Assembly: GCF_001428565.1 (NCBI RefSeq)
Contig: NZ_LMIA01000010.1
Span: 62,001 to 126,000, forward strand
Source of the DNA: Nocardioides sp. Root190
GTDB taxonomy: Bacteria > Actinomycetota > Actinomycetes > Propionibacteriales > Nocardioidaceae
Length of the DNA: 64,000 bases
Reading direction: 5' to 3'
Shown: one piece after another, positions 3,230 to 7,154 of the stretch
How the letters are laid out: each line of letters begins with the position of its first letter
Numbering within the stretch: position 1 is the stretch's first letter
Position numbers and translations under genes: made by a program
Notes under the pieces: model-generated
Told to the model about the DNA's origin: nothing
Seen by the model: only the letters and a program-made list of their open reading frames with translations
Database searches by the model: none

Positions 3230-3243
3230 TAGAACAGGTTCTA
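3230..3243. promoter_or_regulatory. KstR operator (perfect consensus)
   Basis: TAGAACAGGTTCTA fits TnnAACnnGTTnnA at every fixed position and is palindromic apart from its centre. It lies in the 89-bp gap between the divergent FadE34-type gene (start 3173) and the methyltransferase gene (start 3263), so one repressor dimer pair could control both. KstR binding is inferred from the motif and from the kstR gene 4 kb away. Confidence 0.85.
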
Positions 3244-3262
3244 ATCCTACTAGAATGACGGC

Positions 3263-3940
3263 GTGCCCGACACCATGCCGTCCGACCTGCTGGACCACGC
3301 CCGCCGCGCCAAGGGCTTCATGCCCGAGGACGAGGGCGACCTGTTGCACCGGGTGGCGCTCGAGCGCCTCCCCCACGGCCCCGGCCTGGAGGTCGGGACC
3401 TACTGCGGGAAGTCGGGGATCTACCTCGGTGCCGCCGCACAGCAGGTCAGCGCCACCTCAGGGAAGGCGGCGGTCGTCTTCACGGTCGACCACCACCGCG
3501 GATCCGAGGAGAACCAGGCGGGCTGGGAGCACCATGACACGAGCGTGGTCGACTCCGAGTTCGGCCTGATGGACACGTTGGGACAGTTCCGCAAGAACAT
3601 CGCCAGGGCCGGGCTCGAGGACCACGTCATCGCCGTCGTCGGCCAGTCGACCACGGTCGCGGCCCACTGGCGCACCCCGCTGTCGCTGCTCTTCATCGAC
3701 GGCGGCCACGGCGAGGAGCCCGCCCGGGACGACTTCCGCGGCTGGGCGCACTGGGTCGACGCGGGCGGCCACCTCGCCATCCACGACGTCTTCGTCGACC
3801 CCGCCGACGGCGGCCGCCCGCCGTACGAGCAGATCTACCTGCCCGCGCTGGCGAGCGGGGCCTTCACCGAGGTGACGGCCGTCGGATCGCTGCGGGTCCT
3901 GGAGCGCACCTCAGGAACGGCTGGCGACCCGCTCGGGTGA
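3263..3940 (+). CDS. class I SAM-dependent methyltransferase
   Basis: This 225-aa protein has a Rossmann-fold methyltransferase core of the Methyltransf_24 type: the SAM motif [11 protein letters not shown] (about residues 42-52) and the second-strand motif FIDGGHGEE (about 145-153). The start is GTG 3263, 20 bp from the KstR box. The acceptor is unknown. It converges on the barrel-protein gene and the two overlap tail to tail by 30 bp. Because it is read divergently from fadE34 off one KstR box and faces a second methyltransferase and a glycosyltransferase, it probably belongs to the same modification pathway as those genes (inference). Confidence 0.8.
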
Positions 3941-5056
3941 GGGGCAGTCGCACTCGAGTGCGATCTCCTCGAAGTGCGGGGCCAGGGAGGTGCCGCGCAT
4001 GATGCCGGAGCCCGGCGTGGAGTGACCGTAGGTCTCCCCCAGGGCGTCCACGGCCAGCAGCACCGCGGCTGCGGTGTAGGTCGTGTGCTCCACCGGCCAG
4101 TGCACGTTGCGGGGCTCACCGTCGGACGGGCGGGCCGGGTCGTCGTACACCCACCCCGTCCAGTAGCGACCGTCGTCCTCACGCAGGTGCTGCATGTCGG
4201 TCAGCAGGGTCAGGGCACTGCGGTGGTCGCCGATCACGTCGAGGGCCATCGCGAGCTCGCAGGTCTCGGCGCCGGTCACCCACGGGTTCGTGTCGACGCA
4301 GTGGATGCCCAGGCCGGGCACGACGAAGTCGTCCCACCGTCGTGACAGCAGCTCGCGCGCGGCGTCGCCACGCACCGGACCGCCGAGGACCGGGTAGTAC
4401 CAGTCCATGGAGTACGTCGCCTTGTCGGCGAACCGGTCGGCGTGGTGCCGCACCGCGTGACCGAGCCGGCCGCCGGCCAGCTCCCACTCCGGCTGCGGGT
4501 CGTCCATCAGCTCGGCGAGCGCCACCCCGGCGCGCAGCGAGTGGTAGATGCTGGAGTTGCCGGTGAGCAGGCAGAAGTCGTCGACCGGGGTCCAGCGGAT
4601 CCCGCCGAACGGCTCCTGCAGGGAGACCACGAAGTCGAGTCCGGCGCGCACCGAGGGCCAGTAGCGCTGGACGAAACCGATGTCGCGACGCACGAGCCAG
4701 TGGTGCCACACGCCGACGGCGAAGTAGGCCGACATGTTCACCTCGCCACGCGGGTCGTCCTCGGCGCCGGCGACGATCTTCATCGGCCAGGAGCCATCGG
4801 CCCGCTGCATCGTGGGCACCCAGGCATAGGCACGCTCGGCAGCCTCGACCTGACCACCGATCAGCATGGCCATCGCAGCCTCGACGTGGTTCCAGATGTC
4901 GACGTGCTCGCCCGAGGTCCACGGCACCGCGCCCCAGGGCTCCTGCATCGCGGCGATCGCCGCCGCGGTGTCGGCGACCTGCTCGGCGCTCAGGACGCCC
5001 TCGACGTGCGGCAGGTGGCTGAGCGGCACCTCGCTGAGGTTGCTGACCTCGTTCAT
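3911..5056 (-). CDS. (alpha/alpha)6-barrel protein, prenyltransferase/terpenoid-cyclase-like
   Basis: This 381-aa protein consists of repeated helical hairpins with QW-like turns such as ADGSWP, FGGIRW and DDGRYWTGW, and a conserved WHHW segment. The pattern suggests an (alpha/alpha)6 toroid, as in squalene-cyclase/prenyltransferase-like proteins and six-hairpin glycosidases. No DxDD cyclase motif is visible, so a protonation-type cyclase activity is doubtful; a glycosidase-like or purely binding role is equally possible. The start ATG overlaps the TGA of the upstream methyltransferase (ATGA), so the two are translationally coupled in one operon with the glycosyltransferase. The 3' end overlaps the convergent methyltransferase by 30 bp. 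Family recognition is moderate and no function is proven. Confidence 0.7.
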
Positions 5057-5802: not shown

Positions 5803-7075
5803 CTGCGTTCTCCTGGTGGTACTGGGTAATCACTTCATCGAAGACATCAGCGGTCTTGGCCGCGACGGCGGACCAGCTGAAGAGCTCCTTGACCCGCTCG
5901 CGTCCGGCGGCCCCCATCCGGGCCCGGCGCTCGGGTGCGTCGAGGAGGGCAGCGACGGCTCGCGTGAGCTCCTCGACATCGCCGGGCTCGACGACGTCCG
6001 CGCAGAGGCCGTCGGGGCCGACGACCTCGGGGATCGCGCCGGCCCGCGAGACGACCAGCGGGGTCTCGCACGCCATCAGCTCTGCCGTGGGCAGCGAGAA
6101 GCCTTCGTACAGGGACGGGACGCAGGCCAGCTCGGCCGAGCCCATCAGGGCGACCAGCTCGTCGTCGGTGAGGCCGTTGGCGAAGGTGACGTGCTCGGCG
6201 ATGCCGAGCTTCTCGATCAGCTTCTCCGTGACGCCGCCCTCCTTGGGCTTGGTCACCAGCACCAGCGACAGGTCACGCTCGGTGAGCAGCTTGGCGAAGG
6301 CCTCCAGCAGGATGTGGATGCCCTTCAACGGCGCATCAGCACTGGCCATCGCCAGGATCCGACCGGGCACCCGCGGCTCACCCGAGGGTGCGAAACGATC
6401 ATCGACGCCGAGCAAAATGGTGGTGATCCGGTCCGGGTCGACCTTGAACTCACGCACGACGTCCCGCTTGGACGACTCCGAGGGGACGATGACCTTGCGC
6501 ATCTTCGGTGCCGTCAGCTTCTGCTGCCGCAGGAACGAGTACCAGCGCCAGACACCGATCTTGGGCAGCTCGAAGCGGATCCGGGAGCCCGGCTTGCGGC
6601 GCATCCACACCGCGGTGTCGAGCTCGATCGCCCGGTCCAGGGTGATCGGGTGGTGGATCGCGGCGGCGAGCGGGAGGCCGTAGTCCTCGATCTCCAGCAA
6701 CGGCATGGCGAGGGTCTGGTTGTCGAAGACGATGTCGAAGTCGTCGCGGCGCTCGTCGAGGAGCTTGACCACACGCTTGCTGAAGGTGAGCGGCTCCGGG
6801 AAGGCCCCACTTCGCATGGTCGCCCACTCCTGGAGGTCGATCAGGTCACGGAACTCGCGGGGTCGCGGGTTCCGGAACTCGTCGCCGGGCCGGTAGAGGT
6901 CGAGGCTCGGCACCTTGGTCAGCGCGACGCCCTCGTCGAGCTCGGGGTAGGGCTGCCCCGAGAACACCTCGACCGTGTGGCCGAGTGCCACGAGCTCACG
7001 GCTGAGCCGACGGATGTAGATCCCCTGGCCGCCCACGTGCGGCTTGCTGCGGTACGACAGCAGTGCGATGCGCAT
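5789..7075 (-). CDS. GT4-family glycosyltransferase (GT-B fold)
   Basis: This 428-aa glycosyltransferase shows the N-terminal loop KPHVGGQGIYIRRLSREL typical of GT-B enzymes and the C-terminal donor-binding region SLYEGFSLPTAELMACETP with the E-x7-E pattern (about residues 320-340). Such enzymes transfer a nucleotide-activated sugar with retention. The start MRIALLSYRS was chosen because a good ribosome site (GGAGAAGG) lies 7 bp upstream; the longer frame adds unrelated residues. It is the first gene of the operon with the methyltransferase and barrel protein, and the KstR-like box at 7141 lies 65 bp upstream, between it and divergent kstR. Sterol-linked expression is therefore likely. Donor and acceptor are unknown. 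Confidence 0.88.
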   Translation of the reverse strand: MRIALLSYRSKPHVGGQGIYIRRLSRELVALGHTVEVFSGQPYPELDEGVALTKVPSLDLYRPGDEFRNPRPREFRDLIDLQEWATMRSGAFPEPLTFSKRVVKLLDERRDDFDIVFDNQTLAMPLLEIEDYGLPLAAAIHHPITLDRAIELDTAVWMRRKPGSRIRFELPKIGVWRWYSFLRQQKLTAPKMRKVIVPSESSKRDVVREFKVDPDRITTILLGVDDRFAPSGEPRVPGRILAMASADAPLKGIHILLEAFAKLLTERDLSLVLVTKPKEGGVTEKLIEKLGIAEHVTFANGLTDDELVALMGSAELACVPSLYEGFSLPTAELMACETPLVVSRAGAIPEVVGPDGLCADVVEPGDVEELTRAVAALLDAPERRARMGAAGRERVKELFSWSAVAAKTADVFDEVITQYHQENADADR

Positions 7076-7140
7076 CTTGGTCCTTCTCCCCTTTGTGCTA
7101 GCTCTGCGGGAGCAGGCCCACAACGTCGGTGCGACAAAAC

Positions 7141-7154
7141 TGGAACGTGTTGCT
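7141..7154. promoter_or_regulatory. KstR operator between the glycosyltransferase operon and kstR
   Basis: TGGAACGTGTTGCT matches TnnAACnnGTTnnA except for the final base. It lies in the 157-bp gap between the divergent glycosyltransferase (start 7075) and kstR (start 7233), consistent with autoregulation of kstR plus control of the glycosyltransferase operon. A TTGCTG...TAGCCT pair (7150-7155 and 7175-7180) overlaps or follows the box and could be the kstR promoter, though its spacing (19 bp) is loose. Confidence 0.7.

Follow-up and report, generated by a model that had tools for sequence, protein, structure and literature searches.

The 64,000-nucleotide window analysed here, from Nocardioides sp. 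Root190 (NCBI RefSeq assembly GCF_001428565.1, contig NZ_LMIA01000010.1, positions 62,001 to 126,000, forward strand), holds four tightly packed genes which fill positions 3263-7075 and are flanked by fadE34 and kstR. On the strength of sequence comparison, these genes are almost certain to represent the known, published cluster for biosynthesis and recycling of methylmannose polysaccharide (MMP); the joint reading, in which this identity is combined with probable KstR control in the Nocardioides-type lineage, also appears very likely. The features of the locus, in window coordinates taken from open reading frames (ORFs) whose start positions were adjusted by reading the sequence, are as follows.

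3263-3940, + strand: meT1-like gene (start at GTG 3263 or ATG 3275), predicted MMP 1-O-methyltransferase
3911-5056, - strand: mmpH, predicted MMP alpha-(1->4)-endomannosidase, (alpha/alpha)6 barrel
5053-5802, - strand: meT3, putative MMP 3-O-methyltransferase (pMeT3)
5789-7075, - strand: manT, predicted GT4 enzyme (phmmer match 7qsg)
1134-3173, - strand: neighbouring fadE34, predicted steroid side-chain acyl-CoA dehydrogenase with acyl-CoA dehydrogenase domains
7233-7844, + strand: kstR, GTG start at 7233 (264 bits to NF033703)
3229-3244, no strand: KstR-type box between fadE34 and meT1, 13 of 14 palindrome positions, CTAGAACAGGTTCTAA
7140-7155, no strand: weaker KstR-type box in the manT-kstR intergenic region, 10 of 14 positions, CTGGAACGTGTTGCTG

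The ORF coordinates bear out the four packed genes of the first-pass annotation and its overlaps of 30 bp (convergent, 3911-3940), 4 bp (5053-5056) and 14 bp (5789-5802), and the KstR boxes that it placed on both sides are found, strong at 3229 and weak at 7140. Pfam and NCBIfam likewise agree with its two methyltransferases and GT4 enzyme; for its barrel protein there is no Pfam match, only weak glucoamylase and oxidosqualene-cyclase echoes (the latter at E 0.0044), and it is the match to MmpH that identifies it. The name fadE34 rests on the place of the gene and on the N. simplex annotation.

Three of the four proteins have close relatives among solved-structure sequences searched with phmmer. 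The meT1 product, which carries Methyltransf_24, has a single match over residues 9-224 (6g7d, E 5.8e-75), deposited as 'Methyltransferase domain protein', which we take to be M. hassiacum MeT1. The single match of the barrel protein covers residues 12-377 and is 7qsj, 'Methylmannose polysaccharide hydrolase (MmpH)' (E 7.3e-115), while the GT4 enzyme matches 7qsg at E 3e-133 against 7.3e-21 for the next best; the deposited molecule name of 7QSG is generic, and the entry is the ManT described in PMC9883506. By contrast with these three, the meT3 product, a class I methyltransferase by Pfam/NCBIfam, matches general class I methyltransferases and has no close solved relative in the same search, and we assign it as pMeT3 because of its place in the cluster. 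It is 45-61% identical to the gene in the same place in 29/29 other loci, and the genes for the GT4 enzyme, the second methyltransferase and the barrel occur together in 30/30 loci, window included. An early guess, orthology with mycobacterial Rv0224c/Rv0225, was abandoned after an empty literature search, and MMP fits the genes better.

As set out in the text of PMC9883506, the mycobacterial MMP set comprises the same four genes: MmpH cleaves MMP, ManT elongates the pieces, MeT1 caps them and pMeT3 presumably methylates. By homology with the characterized M. hassiacum enzymes, the MmpH encoded here would cleave mature MMP to short oligomannosides, ManT would use GDP-mannose to elongate these by alpha-(1->4) mannose units, and MeT1 would cap the reducing end; the second methyltransferase would probably add 3-O-methyl groups.

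The cluster is common in the family and occurs outside it as well. Among sampled genomes, mmpH occurs in 57/296 of the phylum and in 175/196 of the family to which the window belongs. Adjacent manT, meT3 and mmpH were found in 55/57 phylum stretches (the remaining two are short contigs, 4.1 and 4.5 kb long), with pMeT3 between manT and mmpH in 55/57; meT1 lies inside the stretch in 53/57, and is directly convergent with mmpH in 27. A KstR-like gene scoring more than 100 bits lies inside 12 of these 57 stretches, namely the window and all 11 from Streptomyces-type genomes (f3; the names of this group and of the mycobacterial/rhodococcal-type group, f4, are inferred), and 45/57 actinobacterial stretches, some of which end at contig ends, contain none. 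A search of the phylum with the KstR model matched 261/296 genomes, and 13/14 control genomes, at E 0.001; that tally was not used, and 28 of the better matches were followed up by reading their regions. Within the family, where presence was defined as a match at E 1e-30 or better, KstR was found in 93/196 genomes, all of which have mmpH; a further 82 have mmpH without KstR, and both are missing from 21. The cluster is therefore widespread in the absence of kstR or KstR boxes (45/57 phylum stretches; 82/175 mmpH-bearing family genomes), which the first-pass annotation had itself held to count against its proposal. The conservation with kstR that it proposed to check is present in the family, where the cluster sits beside kstR in 82 of the 93 kstR-bearing genomes, whereas elsewhere fadE34 and kstR can be adjacent, the MMP genes lying away.

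These family linkage counts were made by eye from coordinates. In 81 genomes no more than 5 kb separates mmpH from kstR; in G305 the cluster is split over contig ends with manT adjoining kstR, and was counted as linked. Ten of the 93 are unlinked, and G347, with no listed mmpH coordinate, was left out of both the linked count and the promoter test of unlinked genomes described below. Among 80 named loci, kstR adjoins manT in 63 and fadE34 adjoins meT1 in 57; among the 17 that lack kstR, four loci end too near to judge (L167, L173, L186, L190). Conversely, fadE34 is directly divergent from kstR, with no MMP gene between, in 8/8 mycobacterial/rhodococcal-type loci, and the two are adjacent, again with no MMP gene between, in seven of nine family loci in which kstR is unlinked or is that of G347; the remaining two, G451 and G428, have no fadE34 at kstR. 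Five loci without linked kstR (L152, L171, L174, L179, L182) have a reductase gene directly before manT, a relative, by its C-terminal motif, of window ORF 10232-11224. On an MmpH tree made by a quick method, the linked or unlinked state changes six times, with L173 taken as unlinked in spite of an early contig end. The most economical reading has a stable MMP cluster around which sterol genes are gained or lost.

The regulator of the window is a KstR orthologue by phylogeny: at 264 bits it falls just below the 280-bit cut-off of NF033703, and it shares one clade (support 100/99) with the mycobacterial/rhodococcal-type KstR proteins that pass the cut-off. The KstR boxes were scored over 14 positions of a 16-mer palindrome, built from the core TNNAACNNGTTNNA and the flanking letters of the 3229 site, whose own score is therefore partly circular; sites of other genomes did not enter the pattern. 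A first, incorrect pattern, AACAAGNCTTGTT, was dropped with 2 matches against 3.5 expected by chance. In random 220-bp stretches of the window, a score of 10 was reached in 107/1000 and of 9 in 466/1000; a score of 11 was reached in 7/1000 random stretches of 170 bp. Across the whole genome, the 46 sites with at most two mismatches are outnumbered by 56 for a reversed control pattern, and weak sites alone therefore prove nothing; 17 of the 46, the 3229 site included, have 0 or 1 mismatch, the 56-site control covering the set with at most two. The window contains two further KstR-type boxes of 12/14 (11232-11247 and 21664-21679), the former just upstream of the reductase ORF mentioned above.

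The boxes were also compared between species. The fadE34-meT1 intergenic region has a box of 11-14 in 57/57 relatives' loci, at a median of 19 bp from the meT1 start (interquartile range 16-21; starts extrapolated from alignments) and 25 bp from the fadE34 start. As this box lies no more than 35 bp from meT1 in 50/57 loci (37-115 bp in the other seven), the meT1 promoter should overlap it there. Between manT and kstR, a site scoring at least 9 is found in 56/63 relatives' loci, and over these 56 rows the information content of the box columns is 1.67 bits, and that of the flanks 0.32 and 0.48; the 1.67 is inflated by anchoring on the best site, and the rows are not independent of one another by descent. 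The 7140 box is credible solely through such conservation. The notion that the box follows fadE34 and not meT1, taken from five loci, was set aside: in L134, L143 and L181 an ORF of 321-458 codons has been inserted after the box, between it and meT1 on the meT1 strand, and meT1 may therefore still lie downstream of the box.

Clusters separated from kstR were scored as well, with mixed results. A manT promoter box of at least 11 is present in 3/3 Nocardioides whose kstR is unlinked (L227, 12; L228, 11; L229, 13). In L171 and L179, from G428 and G451 respectively (each genome counted once), the upstream gene is co-oriented with manT, and the box there therefore most simply serves manT. No manT promoter box of at least 11 was found in 13 Nocardioides without kstR (the first of the genus in the no-match list, a subset of the total) or in 34 other actinobacteria scored (31 in the main phylum scoring and three later). 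L078 and L083-L087 were left out of that main phylum scoring; L085-L087 later gave 8 or 9 at manT, and L078, L083 and L084 were unscorable. N. terrae (L174) and N. insulae (L182), both without a KstR match at 1e-30, have manT sites of 10 and 8, and their KstR-bearing relative CER19 has one of 13.

We judge KstR control of meT1 to be somewhat favoured by these comparisons, and KstR control of the manT operon to be about evenly balanced. In that case the 3229 box would mediate repression of meT1 by KstR, and the 7140 box possibly that of the manT-meT3-mmpH operon, so that MMP synthesis would rise with steroid acyl-CoA. The chief alternative, which we hold to be the less probable but by no means slight, is that the MMP cluster lies outside KstR control, that the boxes serve fadE34 and kstR alone, and that the MMP genes are passengers with promoters of their own. 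Adjacent fadE34-kstR pairs lacking an intervening MMP gene do share a site of 10-13 in 15/15 loci (a single site in 13, with a second of 9 in L199 and L224; L208 and L211 were left out of this scoring), and the family retains MMP in the 82 genomes in which no KstR was found. Further observations also weigh against KstR control of the MMP genes. With kstR unlinked, no manT promoter box of at least 11 was found in seven Aeromicrobium-like genomes (group g2, which includes Aeromicrobium sp. Root495) or in seven of mycobacterial/rhodococcal type, 0/14 kstR-bearing genomes together, and no such box was found at meT1 in 15 unlinked clusters scored. L159 and L175, which have kstR beside manT and no adjacent fadE34, show no box at the meT1 promoter, and are the sole loci of the five first read that still count against meT1 control. 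The best site between manT and kstR scores 8 in 7/63 loci, and, as we read them, the promoter-like elements best conserved near the two boxes are directed at fadE34 and kstR. G428 and G451 have neither HsaA over cut-off nor fadE34 beside kstR, and the boxes in the three unlinked Nocardioides may reflect one event, since the kstR genes concerned fall into a single clade. Table 3 of PMC7807495 gives the kstR of N. simplex as KR76_12270 and its fadE34 as KR76_12295, the latter marked there as phytosterol-induced and the former not; the four tags between them (KR76_12275-12290) are presumably the MMP genes, from tag arithmetic at the usual spacing, and go unmentioned in the main text of PMC7807495 and PMC7593942. 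Against the passenger alternative stand the proximity of the box to meT1 in 50/57 loci, the retention of the manT box in all three kstR-unlinked Nocardioides, and the occurrence of a box of 11-12 at manT, together with a KstR-like gene, in 11/11 Streptomyces-type and 4/4 Catenulispora loci.

The clade in question comprises the kstR genes of G451, G428 and G484 (L222-L224; support 99/92). It groups with Aeromicrobium-like kstR and not with that of most other Nocardioides (99/98), which suggests acquisition by replacement or transfer.

The MmpH of the window keeps the equivalents of Asp47, Glu262 and Glu265 (M. hassiacum numbering), but differs from the M. hassiacum protein in replacing Asp50 with Asn, Phe102 with Met and Trp315 with Tyr. 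Two points count against the MMP assignment: Asp50 (Asn56 in the window MmpH) is a residue whose mutation drastically lowered M. hassiacum MmpH activity, and pMeT3 is given as putative, both according to the text of PMC9883506. In an alignment of 136 MmpH rows, Asp47, Trp49, Asn101, Met215, Tyr219, Glu262 and Glu265 are invariant in all rows not gapped at the position, and the Asp50 position is Asn in 106, window included. The text of PMC9883506 left the catalytic acid open between Asp47 and Asp50; because Asp47 is kept in every row not gapped there and Asp50 is so often Asn, the alignment favours Asp47. A related but different polymer, such as another 3-O-methylated mannan or the acetylated MMP of Streptomyces griseus noted in the Fig. 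1 legend of PMC9883506, would accommodate an MmpH ~50% identical to those of mycobacterial/rhodococcal-type genomes and the Asp50 and Trp315 replacements in its substrate cleft; we think it unlikely, as the full set of four genes is retained, together with most of the remaining cleft residues. That the genes form a new sterol-controlled pathway glycosylating and methylating a surface lipid, isoprenoid or sterol is highly improbable, since a loosely compatible gene content and the faint cyclase echo of the barrel are set against near full-length matches to MMP enzymes, retained MmpH active-site residues, and the occurrence of the cluster where no KstR, or no HsaA over its cut-off, was detected.

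What the first-pass annotation took for an undescribed system thus corresponds to a published one, with solved relatives for most of its proteins; the lipid or isoprenoid product gives way to a polysaccharide, and the surface glycolipid to a polymer that is intracellular in the account of PMC9883506. Its sterol control, attached to a wrongly named product, gains some support in this lineage from the conserved boxes and the unlinked Nocardioides.

The same account proposes that MMP sequesters fatty-acyl-CoA in mycobacteria. Using PF08354 as a marker for fatty acid synthase I (FAS-I), we found no match in 13/13 Nocardioides (the genome of the window included) or 11/11 Streptomyces-type genomes, and matches in 3/3 Aeromicrobium-like and 3/3 mycobacterial/rhodococcal-type genomes. 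The MMP cluster therefore occurs without FAS-I, which suggests that no role confined to FAS-I can hold in general; in this small sample, which did not include Catenulispora, the box wiring was seen solely in lineages without the marker. HsaA was over cut-off in 10/30 genomes (that of the window, G382, G453, G484, G389, G406, G038, G071, G255 and, as the one Streptomyces-type genome, G285), and not in 7/7 kstR-less Nocardioides asked, G428, G451, G198 or the other 10 of 11 Streptomyces-type genomes. One speculative and rather improbable idea is that MMP belongs to acyl-CoA catabolism in actinobacteria that lack FAS-I: a KstR-family repressor that senses acyl-CoA would release MMP synthesis along with a FadE34-type dehydrogenase, and bulky acyl-CoA such as steroid-CoA would be sequestered by the polymer. 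If so, the wiring would predate sterol degradation or be independent of it, because Streptomyces-type genomes have it without HsaA. As the role of MMP is unsettled, a KstR link would offer a regulatory clue to the timing of its production, and could be tested in soil strains, partly from existing RNA-seq data.

We thus appear to have a known polysaccharide cluster in an undescribed regulatory setting, and the link between KstR and MMP seems to be unreported in the literature searched. The words KstR, cholesterol, sterol and Nocardioides are absent from the main text of PMC9883506, and literature searches linking KstR with methylmannose, or methylmannose with Nocardioides, found no paper in the library searched; a search on 3-O-methylmannose polysaccharide and cholesterol returned a paper on another polysaccharide, and one on the KstR regulon with glycosyltransferases or methyltransferases returned papers which look unrelated.

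Set beside known systems, the window has the same four kinds of gene as the mycobacterial MMP cluster (meT1, mmpH, pmeT3 and manT in the text of PMC9883506), and shares with mycobacterial/rhodococcal-type loci the manT, meT3, mmpH block with a convergent meT1. The clusters sampled in those genomes nevertheless lie away from fadE34 and kstR, whereas that of the window lies between them with KstR-type boxes, and in four of them (L032, G290, G270, G071) a different TetR gene is divergent from meT1. The one in L032 (8142-8774, - strand), with TetR_C_20 and 49 bits to the KstR model, is a candidate MMP regulator in such genomes. Streptomyces-type and Catenulispora loci resemble the window in having manT divergent from a KstR-like TetR gene with a similar box, but their KstR-like proteins fall outside the KstR clade, extra sequence separates meT1 from mmpH, and 10 of 11 Streptomyces-type genomes show no HsaA over cut-off, which the genome of the window does. 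In one Streptomyces-type locus (L044, 13953-15317), the gene after the KstR-like regulator encodes a membrane protein of the SCO2321 family that weakly matches the prenyltransferase toroid. As for the KstR cholesterol regulon, the main text of the two N. simplex papers does not name MMP genes among its targets, and the window shares with its divergent fadE34-kstR pair the KstR orthologue, FadE34 and the box.

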